In this document: piece by piece, positions 22,453 to 27,888 of the stretch | Position numbering within the stretch: position 1 is the stretch's first letter | Layout of the letters: every line of letters starts with the position of its first letter | Assembly: GCA_012719495.1 (NCBI GenBank) | Contig: JAAYAG010000119.1 | Span: 1-64,000, forward strand | Origin: Bacteroidales bacterium | GTDB taxonomy: Bacteria > Bacteroidota > Bacteroidia > Bacteroidales > Prolixibacteraceae | Direction: 5' to 3' | Length of the DNA stretch: 64,000 nucleotides | Translations under genes and position numbers: made by a program | The notes under the pieces: model-generated | Told to the model about the DNA's origin: nothing | What the model saw: only the letters and a program-made list of their open reading frames with translations | The model's database searches: none

Positions 22453-23542
22453 CTATTCGCCTCCAAATTCCATCAAATAGGCTTTGATAAAGCCGTCCAA
22501 ATCGCCATCCATTACGGCTTGAACGTTACTGCTCTCGAACCCGGTTCGTACATCTTTTACCAGTTTGTATGGCTGCATGGTATACGATCGGATTTGTGAA
22601 CCCCATTCGATTTTCTTTTTGCCGGCTTCAATTTTCGAAACTTCTTCCTGTCTTTTGCGGAGTTCCAGCTCGTACAATTGTGATTTCAACAGGCGCATGG
22701 CATTTTCTTTATTCTGAAGTTGTGAGCGGCTTTCCGAGTTTTCGATCATGATGCCTGTGGGGGCGTGCCTAAGTCGAACGGCTGTTTCAACCTTATTCAC
22801 ATTTTGGCCCCCAGCGCCACTCGAACGCATGGTTTCCCAAGATATGTCGGCTGGGTTGATTTCGATCTCAATGGTGTCGTCGACCAGTGGCGCCACGTAG
22901 ACCGAAGTGAACGAAGTTTGCCGTTTCCCTTGTGCGTTGAAGGGCGAGATGCGAACCAAGCGGTGAACTCCGTTTTCGCTTTTTAGATAGCCGTATGCAT
23001 AATCACCTTCAATTTGAACGGTGCAATTTTTTATCCCTACATCTTCGCCGGCCTGATAGTCCATCACATGGAAAGAGTATCCATGCTGTTCAGCCCAGCG
23101 GTTATACATTCTGAAAAGCATCTCGGCCCAGTCGTTACTTTCTGTACCTCCGGCCCCTGCATTTATTCGTAATACAGCGCCCAGTTTATCTTCTTCTTTT
23201 TGAAGCATGTTGCGGGCTTCCAGCTTCTCAACCAGGTCGAGGGTTTGTGCAAAATGCTGTTCAACTTCAGCTTCATCGGCATCGCCACTCTGCTGGAATT
23301 CGAACAGGACTATAAGATCTTCAACAGATTGGTCCACTTCTTTATACGCATCAGTCCATTGTTTAATCCCCCTGATTACCTTCATCTGGGCTTCGGCTGT
23401 TTTTGAGTTTTCCCAAAAGGCAGGGTCTTGAGTTTTTAACTCCTCTTCTTGTAATCGTATTAATTTGCCATCAATGTCAAAGATACCCCCTCAGCGCATC
23501 CCGGCGCTCAACAAGATTTTTGATCTGGTCGCGTAAAATCAT
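22453..23542 (-). CDS. prfB: Peptide chain release factor 2 (+1 frameshift)
   Basis: RF2 ends translation at UGA and UAA. The first 21 codons (ATG at 23542) run to CTT TGA C, with TGA at 23479-23477. An internal SD-like AGGGGG stands three bases before the CTT. The ribosome must slip +1 there to read GAC (23478-23476) and continue through the 341-codon main frame, for 362 residues in all. The slip site AGGGGGTATCTTTGAC is the same as in E. coli. The SPF codon-recognition tripeptide (RISPFNAQ) and the GGQ catalytic motif ([16 protein letters not shown]) are present. Low RF2 lets the slip occur, giving autoregulation. Confidence 0.97.
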
Positions 23543-24400: not shown

Positions 24401-25318
24401 TTATCGAATGTTTTCGATGTCGTATGGCGTTTCTTGGTATACGTAGTAGTTTAACCAATTTTGAAAGAAAAGGTTGGCATGCCCGCGCCAACGTACAACC
24501 GGAGGTTTACTCGGATCGTTCTTTTTGTAATAATGCTTAGGCATTTCGATGGGAGCACCTTTAGCCAGATCGCGTTTGTATTCACCATCGAGGGTATTGG
24601 GCGCATATTCCGAATGCCCGGTTACAAAAAAGCGACGGTTCGCCTTGTCTTTCACCATATAAACCCCGGCTTCTTCCGATTCTGCAATAACGTCTAAGTC
24701 TGGCACTTTCGCTACATCTTCTTTTCTGATTTCAGTGTGGCGCGAGTGCGGCACATGGAATTCGTCGTCGAAGCCCCTAAAAATAGGGAGCAACGGATCG
24801 GACGCTGTATGATGGAACACTCCAAACATTTTTTGATTGAGCGGGTGCTTAGGCACACCGTAGTAGTGATATAATGCCGCCATCGACGCCCAGCAAATGA
24901 AAAGCGACGATTGCACATTGGTGCGAGACCAATCGAGAATTTCGACCAATTCGTCCCAATAGGTTACATCTTCGTATTCAAGTTGTTCGACAGGGGCGCC
25001 GGTTACAATCAAGCCGTCGTACTTTTTGTGCTTTATTTGACTGAAATCGAAATAGAACGAACGCATATGCTTTTCCGATGTATTCTTAGGCGTATGACCG
25101 CCAACCATAACCAAATCGATTTCGAGCTGTAGTGGTGTGTTTGACAGCAACCTGATCAAATCGGTTTCGGTGGTAACCTTCACCGGCATCAGGTTTAACA
25201 CGGCCAGTCGCAACGGACGAATATCCTGATGACTGGCACGCGTAGTGTCGATCACAAAGATGTTTTCTTGTTTCAACGCTTCAATGGCCGGCAGCGTATC
25301 GGGTATGTTTACTGGCAT
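24401..25318 (-). CDS. metA: Homoserine O-acetyltransferase, MetA type
   Basis: The 305-residue product is a full-length MetA. It activates homoserine for methionine synthesis. The catalytic Cys is C142 (FICWASMAALYHYYG), with HSR and the later GHSEY His region in place. Residue 111 is Glu (TGAPVEQLEYED), where the E. coli succinyl enzyme has Gly. In studied MetA proteins, Glu at this position goes with acetyl-CoA use. This fits the O-acetylhomoserine enzyme encoded just upstream. The gene follows metY by 72 bases, with a 14-bp hairpin in the gap. Confidence 0.93.
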   Translation of the reverse strand: MPVNIPDTLPAIEALKQENIFVIDTTRASHQDIRPLRLAVLNLMPVKVTTETDLIRLLSNTPLQLEIDLVMVGGHTPKNTSEKHMRSFYFDFSQIKHKKYDGLIVTGAPVEQLEYEDVTYWDELVEILDWSRTNVQSSLFICWASMAALYHYYGVPKHPLNQKMFGVFHHTASDPLLPIFRGFDDEFHVPHSRHTEIRKEDVAKVPDLDVIAESEEAGVYMVKDKANRRFFVTGHSEYAPNTLDGEYKRDLAKGAPIEMPKHYYKKNDPSKPPVVRWRGHANLFFQNWLNYYVYQETPYDIENIR

Positions 25319-25390: not shown

Positions 25391-26782
<1,392 letters not shown>

Positions 26783-26808
26783 CTATTTTATTTGAAAAGT
26801 TTTGGAAA

Positions 26809-26920
26809 GCGCATGTACACAAACAGAAACAAAAAGCTATTTGCTCATGCGCACAAGCATTCGCATCATCATGCCCATAGTAGCCATGATTGTAATTGAA
26901 GTGATATTTTCGATGCGAAT
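26809..26920 (-). promoter_or_regulatory. Candidate methionine attenuator hairpins
   Basis: Four segments can pair in exclusive ways on the minus strand. Arm 1 (26920-26912, ATTCGCATC) pairs perfectly over nine bases with arm 2 (26867-26859). Arm 3 (26852-26846, GCGCATG) pairs over seven bases with arm 4 (26815-26809). Arms 2 and 3 can pair instead through ATGCG/CGCAT. All except arm 4 lie in or at the end of the Met-rich leader ORF, and the leader stop lies between arms 3 and 4. This is the layout of a translation-coupled attenuator. No strong U-tract follows arm 4. Confidence 0.5.
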
Positions 26921-26926
26921 TTTCAT
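26837..26926 (-). CDS. Met-rich leader peptide upstream of metY
   Basis: This 29-codon ORF (ATG 26926, TAG 26837) encodes a peptide with eight Met residues, seven of them in the 14 residues from 14 to 27, including Met-Met-Met at 19-21. It lies 147 bases before metY, and about 25 bases after the transcript start predicted from a TATGTTTG -7 box. A cluster of codons for the end product, just before competing hairpins, is the hallmark of ribosome-mediated attenuation. Slow Met-tRNA supply would stall the ribosome at codons 14-27. The peptide itself need have no function. I know of no named family matching it. Confidence 0.6.
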   Translation of the reverse strand: MKIRIENITSITIMATMGMMMRMLVRMSK

Positions 26927-26957
26927 TGTGTTTGTTTATCCTACTTCTGTAGTACTG

Positions 26958-26965
26958 CAAACATA
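26958..26965 (-). promoter_or_regulatory. -7 element of the metY leader promoter
   Basis: TATGTTTG on the minus strand matches the Bacteroidota -7 consensus TAnnTTTG. A weak TTTA lies 20 bases upstream at the -33 place. Transcription would start near 26951, about 25 bases before the leader ATG. Confidence 0.5.
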
Positions 26966-27093
26966 AGTTCTTTTTCGCAAATATCTAAAGCGTGAATTAA
27001 AAGATTTTTTTATCTTAATATAAAATTAACAAAGAGTTTTTCAGCAAGAAGCTAAAGTGTTAAATATGAATAAAATATGATTAGTGTACAGGT

Positions 27094-27888
27094 TTATTTA
27101 TTGTAAATGTAGGTTGATTTTTCTTGAGCCCCCAAAAAGCCATATCCATTGGTAATATAATTTTTAACAGGAAAAATGGTTTCGTAATCATACGAGCCGA
27201 AGGTGACTGAATGATCGTCGTGACTGATAATAAAATCAATCAGTACATCGGAAATGGTTGTCACTGTTACAATCGCCGAATCGAACCTGCTTAAAAAAGA
27301 ATCGCAATATATTCTTTTGTTTGTACTGTATCCTCTATCATCGATGCTTCCTCCTGTTGACATTTCAAAACTTGGGTCATTTTTCCGGTATCCTTTCACA
27401 GATATTGAATGCCAGTTGTAATCAGGATTGTAGTCGAAAAACTCTACGTACAACAACCCTGTCCACTGTATTGTATCATAGGTGAAGTACATCGTATCGA
27501 TGGTTACTTTTTGTAACAGTTGTTGAGCATTCGAAACTGCTTTCCCTAATTCATTGTCTTCCACTACAATGTTGTAATCTGCATTATCACTGAGTATTAT
27601 GCTGTCGTTTAGCTTGTACATGCACGAATCGGTTTCGTAAAATGGGGCATAGGGCATATTGTTTTTATATAGCCACACTTTTGGCGATTGCAGGTAATTG
27701 CTTGCTTTCATATTATCTAAGGGTAGCGATTTGAAAATATAAGCTCTTGTGTTGTCTTTGGAGAGATACCCTTGTATCGCAATTTTTTGTTTTAAGTTTA
27801 ATTCGTCAAAGTCTACTTCAACAACTCGTTCACAAGCAGTTAGTAATATCGAAAGTGCTACGGTAAGAGCGTAGAATAACATTTTCAT
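27094..27888 (-). CDS. DUF4249 family lipoprotein
   Basis: The 264-residue protein has a lipobox (LSILLTACE, Cys near residue 19), then EVDFDELNLKQKIAIQGYLS, the usual opening of DUF4249. These lipoproteins accompany TonB-dependent receptors and are thought to act as surface partners; the substrate is unknown. Three bases separate it from the receptor gene upstream. It is shorter than its cousin at 51626. Confidence 0.82.
   Translation of the reverse strand: MKMLFYALTVALSILLTACERVVEVDFDELNLKQKIAIQGYLSKDNTRAYIFKSLPLDNMKASNYLQSPKVWLYKNNMPYAPFYETDSCMYKLNDSIILSDNADYNIVVEDNELGKAVSNAQQLLQKVTIDTMYFTYDTIQWTGLLYVEFFDYNPDYNWHSISVKGYRKNDPSFEMSTGGSIDDRGYSTNKRIYCDSFLSRFDSAIVTVTTISDVLIDFIISHDDHSVTFGSYDYETIFPVKNYITNGYGFLGAQEKSTYIYNK

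Follow-up and report, generated by a model that had tools for sequence, protein, structure and literature searches.

A conserved methionine-codon leader upstream of metY in Prolixibacteraceae: a candidate ribosome-read methionine sensor

How could methionine be sensed through translation of a leader peptide, when methionine is also the initiating amino acid and the same pool has to charge the initiator tRNA, a hard case for leader-peptide control? The question is raised by the region upstream of metY in contig JAAYAG010000119.1 of a Bacteroidales bacterium (Prolixibacteraceae; assembly GCA_012719495.1), of which the stretch of 64,000 nucleotides analysed here is called the window. The metY gene, encoding O-acetylhomoserine aminocarboxypropyltransferase (sulfhydrylase), lies on the reverse strand at 25391..26689 (TIGR01326, 659.3 bits, cut-off 495.1), and is separated by 72 nt from metA, encoding homoserine O-acetyltransferase, at 24401..25318 (-) (NF047918, 482.4 bits, cut-off 460.5), with which it probably forms one operon. 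An open reading frame of 29 sense codons, eight of them Met, and a TAG stop codon occupies 26837..26926 (-), as read from the letters, and ends 147 nt before metY; its translation from 26926 to 26837 is MKIRIENITSITIMATMGMMMRMLVRMSK followed by the stop. Further upstream, the sequence TATGTTTG at 26958..26965 (-), which we take from the consensus TAnnTTTG to be the -7 box of a predicted Bacteroidota-type promoter, starts 39 nt 5' of the leader ATG. The arrangement described by a first-pass annotation of this DNA, a 29-codon frame with eight Met codons between a promoter box and metY, is therefore present.

When the 300 nt preceding metY were shuffled 2000 times with dinucleotides preserved, no shuffle contained an open reading frame of 15–60 aa with at least 7 internal Met in 16 codons, the maximum being 4. 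A MetY search of 119 related genomes yielded 30 loci, six of which, including that of the window, share the Met leader, and a covariance model built from these six leaders (R1) gave nine strong matches (E ≤ 1.3e-25) in 140 genomes of the family, including the six and the window's own. The nine genomes fall in three genera, and metY lies downstream of the leader in 7/7 loci where the contig continues, the other two being at contig ends. A search of relatives for a short Met-rich frame ahead of metY, which the annotation had set as a check, thus finds it recurring in 9/140 family genomes; the stems sought in the same check are too invariant to show covariation. R1 applied to 393 genomes drawn from the order returned the window's own match and four chance-level matches only, under the stricter filters that apply to runs on more than 40 genomes and by which weak matches are lost. 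The weak matches outside the nine genomes (four in the order, E 0.0028–0.0091, and two in the family, E 0.0024 and 0.0087) were rejected by eye as leaders, and no MetY match is located near the two in the family. In a tree of 108 MetY sequences, from which L001 and L002 were left out, MetY proteins of the six Met-leader loci form one group with a support of 0.996, while the placement of this group within the tree has a support of 0.53–0.76.

Repeated codons for the end product, a mark of classical attenuators, are observed directly: the window has 8 Met among 29 codons, and the nine leaders have 8–10 Met in 28–30 codons. Past the start codon, the nine leaders contain 69 ATGs in frame and 0 and 0 in the other two frames, and in the variable stretch from codon 11 to the Met-Met-Met motif the counts are 20 in frame and 0 and 0, bearing in mind that the counts come from related leaders and so are not of independent events. 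Met17 never varies while its neighbours, codons 16 and 18, take seven forms each, Met14 is replaced by Ile in 2/9 leaders, and gaps in the alignment of six reading frames are multiples of three. The N-terminal half drifts, and a C-terminal MMMRMLxRMSK is common to all nine apart from x. DNA identity from the Met-Met-Met motif through the stop codon amounts to 95% and extends to most silent positions; third codon positions in two segments of this stretch (arms A and B, below) are fixed at CGA, CTT, CGC and AGC, so RNA pairing is constrained as well. Beyond the stop codon, the 17 nt of arm C have a mean pairwise identity of 0.98 (n = 9), compared with 0.39 over the next 40 nt (eight sequences), and arm C is kept beyond its pairing, including the bases GTA of an internal loop. 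The in-frame Met codons together with the conserved silent positions and arm C indicate that the leader is under two overlapping constraints, one on its Met codons and one on RNA pairing between arms B and C.

No SAM riboswitch was recognised near the leader, in agreement with the first-pass annotation. The only match at gathering level in an Rfam scan of the window is tRNA, and at 26600–27200 only chance-level matches far under gathering were obtained (E 2.2–7.7). The SAM-I model RF00162 exceeds its gathering score at 0/9 Met-leader loci and gave no match in the window's genome (99.27% complete), where scoring covered 144 of the 301 first-look candidates. SAM-II (RF00521) was above gathering in 0/6 genomes, control genomes being likewise without a match. 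An exact TAnnTTTG starts 27–39 nt 5' of the leader ATG in 8/9 of the leaders, the ninth having TAGTTTCG, so that the transcript would be predicted to start about 10–30 nt 5' of the ATG and there would be no space for a riboswitch aptamer. Conservation in nine genomes, the retention of Met codons amid drift, and the lack of a SAM riboswitch together make regulation of metY by a leader peptide with Met codons a well supported reading of these sequences.

Four arms in and after the reading frame had been described as pairing 1:2, 2:3 or 3:4, and all three pairings exist. Arm 1, ATTCGCATC, at 26912..26920 (-), is predicted by folding to pair with arm 2; its CGCAT core is present in 8/9 leaders, and in L129 the core is CGCAC, weakening this pairing. 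Arm 2, here arm A, is GATGCGAAT at 26859..26867 (-), comprises the codons Met20-Met21-Arg22-Met23, and is invariant in 9/9; it mimics arm C and sits beneath a ribosome stalled at Met-Met-Met. Arm 3, here arm B, consists of GCGCATG and GCAAATA at 26837..26852 (-), at the end of the frame and overlapping the stop codon. Its paired positions are invariant in the six aligned sequences except for one A to G change that retains a G-U pair, and its codons were inspected across all nine leaders. Arm 4, here arm C, is TGTTTGTGTACATGCGC at 26809..26825 (-), the partner of arm B, and is followed by TTTCC. The 1:2 pairing (ATTCGCATC with GATGCGAAT, 9 bp) is part of the minimum free energy structure, and the 3:4 or B:C pairing (GCGCATG with CATGCGC, 7 bp) continues with eight further pairs beyond a 1/3 internal loop. 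The 2:3 pairing (ATGCG with CGCAT, 5 bp) carries no weight, its equilibrium probability being about 0 in 9/9 sequences because 3:4 wins. The whole leader folds modestly better than shuffles (z −1.99), and the B:C segment does so in 9/9 sequences (z −2.3 to −3.7). Two-sided compensatory changes were found at 0/19 pairs in six sequences, which are too well conserved for such a test, almost nothing varying among them.

The consequences of ribosome position were explored with a static model in which the RNA 3' of a ribosome at each codon is folded at equilibrium, with the ribosome edge placed 16 nt from the first P-site base; these assumptions are our own, the RNA upstream is ignored, the modelled RNA ends just after arm C, and codon 21 is borderline. 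When the ribosome occupies any of the three Met-Met-Met codons, the model gives B:C a probability of 0.76–1.0 in 9/9 leaders; for a ribosome at the stop codon the value is 0 in 9/9, and at the later Met codons 23 and 27 (window numbering) B:C cannot form in 9/9. Arm B lies within the last codons of the frame, and is therefore masked during full translation and free during a stall at Met-Met-Met. In the model without a ribosome, the B:C probability is 0.95–1.0 in 8/9 and 0.16 in G003. B:C thus depends on ribosome position in 9/9 leaders, and 2:3 remains at about 0 at every Met position.

A useful comparison is provided by the leader of the his operon in the same genome (contig C99), which encodes the peptide MITCFGHHHGHHHNLQMR (L133, 1138–1194) and has a terminator of textbook form, GGCTTACC-CAATT-GGTAAGCC-TTTTTT (T6). 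An overlap with the stop codon is likewise seen for its antiterminator arm B, which in RNA ending at arm C pairs with C when the ribosome is on any of the six His codons and not when the ribosome is at the stop; once the whole terminator is included, C:D prevails at equilibrium wherever the ribosome stands. The two leaders are alike in having control codons within a short frame and a stop-overlapping arm, in the his case the antiterminator arm, that is masked by a ribosome at the stop, and they differ in that the his leader has a T6 terminator and a C:D hairpin whereas the Met leader has no detected D arm. Because the stop-codon arm of the his leader responds alike to ribosome position, B:C of the Met leader is, by this analogy of geometry, the counterpart of an antiterminator and not of a terminator.

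The sequence downstream of B:C is observed to have a weak or missing U-tract. In all nine loci the tail after 3:4 has at most three consecutive T; among its first eight bases 2–3 are T in 7/9 (3 in the window), compared with 6 in G016 and 5 in G003, and in five others of the nine T4–T6 runs start 8–10 nt past the stem. The window has 0 terminator-like sites at 26600–27120 in a scan with loops of 3–8, and a scan with loops of 3–12 gave no terminator-like hairpin up to 200 nt from the leader stop. Over the same distance, other terminator-like hairpins occur at 3/9 loci, two of them alike (L125 and L128), and the terminator scan revealed no downstream terminator common to the nine. Similarly, no downstream arm D that could pair with C, as in the his leader, was found in common among the nine loci, either by eye in the alignment or in the terminator scan. 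The leader would act in the manner of an attenuator, but the intrinsic terminator of a classical one is missing from the window's copy, and for this reason the leader is not filed in that class here. Over the 100 nt that follow the stop, the ratio of C to G is 15:15 in the window, and C is mildly above G in the other eight loci (L127 being represented by 61 nt only).

We consider it on balance probable that ribosomes translating the 5' leader of metY-metA serve to sense methionine, with B:C as the ON structure, and very probable that what the leader senses is Met-tRNA. When charged Met-tRNA is short, a ribosome would stall at the in-frame Met codons, chiefly Met19-20-21, where it would cover arm A and leave arm B free to pair with arm C. 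When methionine is plentiful, the ribosome would reach the stop codon within arm B, and B:C would stay open. The direction of the effect is inferred: B:C would be the ON state, and the metY transcript would be lost in the open state. The likeliest OFF route would be that transcription ends early within the ~120 nt of untranslated sequence ahead of metY, probably through Rho, which is favoured because no intrinsic terminator common to the nine loci is recognisable; the modelled geometry is compatible with a Rho-loading region that is exposed by leader translation. A changed rate of mRNA decay would be our second guess for the OFF route. Methionine starvation would also lower translation initiation, and failed initiation on the leader would leave B:C formed as well. 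Since methionine is also the initiating amino acid, a B:C structure that is ON would be self-consistent for methionine, and a terminator at B:C would not.

The alternative proposed by the first-pass annotation, classic attenuation logic with 3:4 as a terminator and 2:3 as an antiterminator formed upon a stall at the first Met codons, appears unlikely, although its Met leader peptide is retained in the reading preferred here. The arms it calls for exist, and arms 2 and 3 are both accessible while the ribosome stands at Met14; nevertheless, 2:3 has a probability of about 0 at each Met position. T-rich tails follow 3:4 in 2/9 loci (6/8 in G016 and 5/8 in G003), and these tails, like the T4–T6 runs further on in five other loci, leave room for weak intrinsic termination at B:C there, whereas seven of the nine tails, the window's among them, have 2–3 T in eight, and the run of at most three T after the stem contrasts with the T6 of the his terminator in the same genome. 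In the sister genus g16, L094 and L096 have a Met/Cys leader that ends in MMRxMTMCMR, and their stop-codon hairpin, AGCCTTC...GAAGGCT, is followed by TTTT, so that a terminator may exist in this variant. Moreover, a terminator at 3:4 would turn metY off during methionine starvation, because either a Met-Met-Met stall or failed initiation would favour 3:4. On the tails, the lack of a common terminator and the masking of the first arm at the stop codon, 3:4 as a terminator was rejected as the main reading, and the two T-rich tails keep it as a rival.

Alternatively, control could be post-transcriptional, with B:C protecting the mRNA or governing whether an RNase or an RNA-binding protein can reach its site, and with leader translation altering decay. 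The conservation of arm C beyond its pairing, at the internal-loop GTA, and the lack of a terminator common to the nine loci speak for this possibility, which we nevertheless judge rather improbable: no Rfam family fits, and we know of no protein or RNase site for this B:C structure. That the frame encodes a functional Met-rich micropeptide, its position before metY being incidental, is suggested by the shared C-terminus of all nine peptides and is very improbable, given that invariance extends to silent positions and into non-coding arm C, that the N-terminal half drifts, that NCBIfam gives no match to the peptide at E ≤ 10, and that the leader remains tied to metY, no second copy having been found elsewhere in the window's genome. 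A chance frame in the 5' untranslated region has only its shortness in its favour and has practically no probability left, being refuted by the shuffles, the recurrence in nine genomes, the 69:0:0 frame bias, and the gaps in multiples of three among six sequences.

The preferred reading, a ribosome-read sensor with B:C as the ON structure, gains context from other metY loci of Bacteroidota. For comparison, the best 80 of at least 577 metY loci in named genomes were taken, many of them from Mucilaginibacter and so not independent; RF00162 is present at 73 of these 80 (15/17 + 18/20 + 18/20 + 19/20 + 3/3), in L079 about 700 nt upstream of metY. With the Met leader this SAM-I riboswitch shares the gene and the physiological need, and it differs in sensing SAM directly and in being absent at 9/9 Met-leader loci. 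In L039 and L065 there are two RF00162 matches each, ~1.5 kb apart on the metY strand. Polycysteine leader frames, defined by at least four Cys in 12 codons and by beating shuffles at 5%, are found in 59 of the 79 loci with enough DNA upstream, again from the best 80 of at least 577 (L002 having been dropped). All 59 belong to the 73 loci with an aptamer, and 0/6 testable loci without an aptamer have one. In 59/59 the leader ATG, taken as the most upstream in-frame ATG beyond the aptamer, is 2–12 nt past it (8 nt in 29), and the SAM-I aptamer may govern translation of the frame. These leaders have 32–50 codons and lie 300–450 nt upstream of metY (L003–L080; for example L006, with its aptamer at 2636–2746), and their use of both TGT (212) and TGC (130) for Cys means that what is kept is the peptide and not a single DNA word. 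Many of them are followed by a hairpin ACACG...CGTGT that lacks an obvious U-tract. Two-sided changes occur at two pairs of this six-pair hairpin (TA to CG in five sequences and AT to GC in one), four pairs having some unpaired cells, in a set of 34/63 loci that was chosen by a pattern demanding such arms and is thus not independent. By eye, L024 and L049, and similarly L066, share a stretch AACGCACGG..TGCCGCGTGACGGGCA with overlapping complementary parts between the leader frame and metY; it is possibly a pseudoknot, and Rfam gave no match at gathering level in the stretch shared by L024 and L049.

The window's leader, with 0 Cys and no aptamer, does not belong to the SAM-I and polycysteine type. 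Met leaders of G003, G016 and G071 contain 1–2 Cys, and mixed Met/Cys leaders occur in the family (L092, L094, L096 and L139) and in neighbouring families (L106, L160 and L164). On the strength of these mixed forms, the Met leader is read here as the Met-rich end of a series of sulfur-amino-acid leaders, in a clade that has no aptamer at metY. G003 has one RF00162 match (L116), located before an HcyBio (PF01837) gene and not before metY. The SAM-I riboswitches of G045 and G056 (L114 and L117) were likewise seen by eye near an HcyBio-like frame and not before metY. In 59/83 metY upstream regions of the order, counted by eye, a long open frame instead ends 12–155 nt before metY. A wider proposal, which we advance only tentatively and as possible, is that sulfur-amino-acid leaders form an undescribed family that controls metY in Bacteroidota. 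The SAM-I and polycysteine RNA would read both SAM and Cys-tRNA; in the window's clade, which has no aptamer and has Met as its control codons, the polarity would be inverted, the end hairpin being ON and the finished leader OFF.

Attenuation was reportedly surveyed by Lopatovskaya and colleagues in 2010. In the open-licence literature nothing relevant was found on a Met leader in Bacteroidota or on a tandem of SAM riboswitch and Cys leader. The closest precedent is metL, predicted upstream of metNIQ in one strain of Streptomyces lividans (PMC8079986). Like the window's leader it is a frame of 29 aa before a methionine gene, it has Met and Cys codons, and its authors did not find a typical Rho-independent terminator either, as far as the accessible portion of that paper goes (PMC8079986). 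It differs in serving a methionine importer, in having two Met besides the start, in its leaderless transcript, and in belonging to another phylum, and conserved arms are not described for it in the same portion (PMC8079986). The novelty of the methionine control element, which the annotation called little-known or new if real, was slightly overstated in view of the earlier prediction of metL (PMC8079986).

For a leader without an intrinsic terminator, the corL and mgtL upstream frames of enterobacterial corA and mgtA offer a parallel, where a Rho site is concealed within ON stems and expression is repressed when the leader is translated (PMC11552253, in the part accessible). The mechanism proposed for the Met leader would resemble them in that translation represses, ON stems sequester a region, and Rho rather than an intrinsic terminator acts, whereas the signal is Mg2+ there and methionine here, Rho has been demonstrated there and is inferred here, and there is no homology (PMC11552253). 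Leaders of actinobacterial cys operons are polycysteine and without terminators, and Rho was suggested by their authors; the accessible text of this survey reports no conserved RNA structures before methionine operons (PMC1262725). They share with the Met leader a run of sulfur-amino-acid codons near the stop and the lack of a terminator, and differ in using Cys instead of Met and in preceding cys/cbs genes (PMC1262725). A Cys leader with a terminator precedes cysS in Rhodobacterales (PMC8632094, as seen in an extract of that paper), and switching between riboswitches or T-boxes and leader peptides is described as an evolutionary theme in the available part of PMC2965389. A transcriptome map of B. 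thetaiotaomicron contains leader-like small frames, and a Met leader is not named in its accessible sections (PMC7366714).

A conserved Met leader with reversed geometry would represent a possible solution to the problem of methionine control, and can be tested with few mutants. Its occurrence in place of the SAM riboswitch of relatives would mean a change from sensing an end metabolite to sensing a charged tRNA, and the leader also points to a widespread arrangement of SAM riboswitch and cysteine leader, for which no paper was found in the open-licence literature. If correct, the inverted polarity would, as far as we know, have no earlier example for the amino acid with which translation starts.

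Elsewhere in the window, the reverse strand carries a release-factor-like frame at 22453–23385 (-), whose ATG-started form seems by eye to begin inside the protein; it is perhaps prfB, in which a programmed frameshift is usual.
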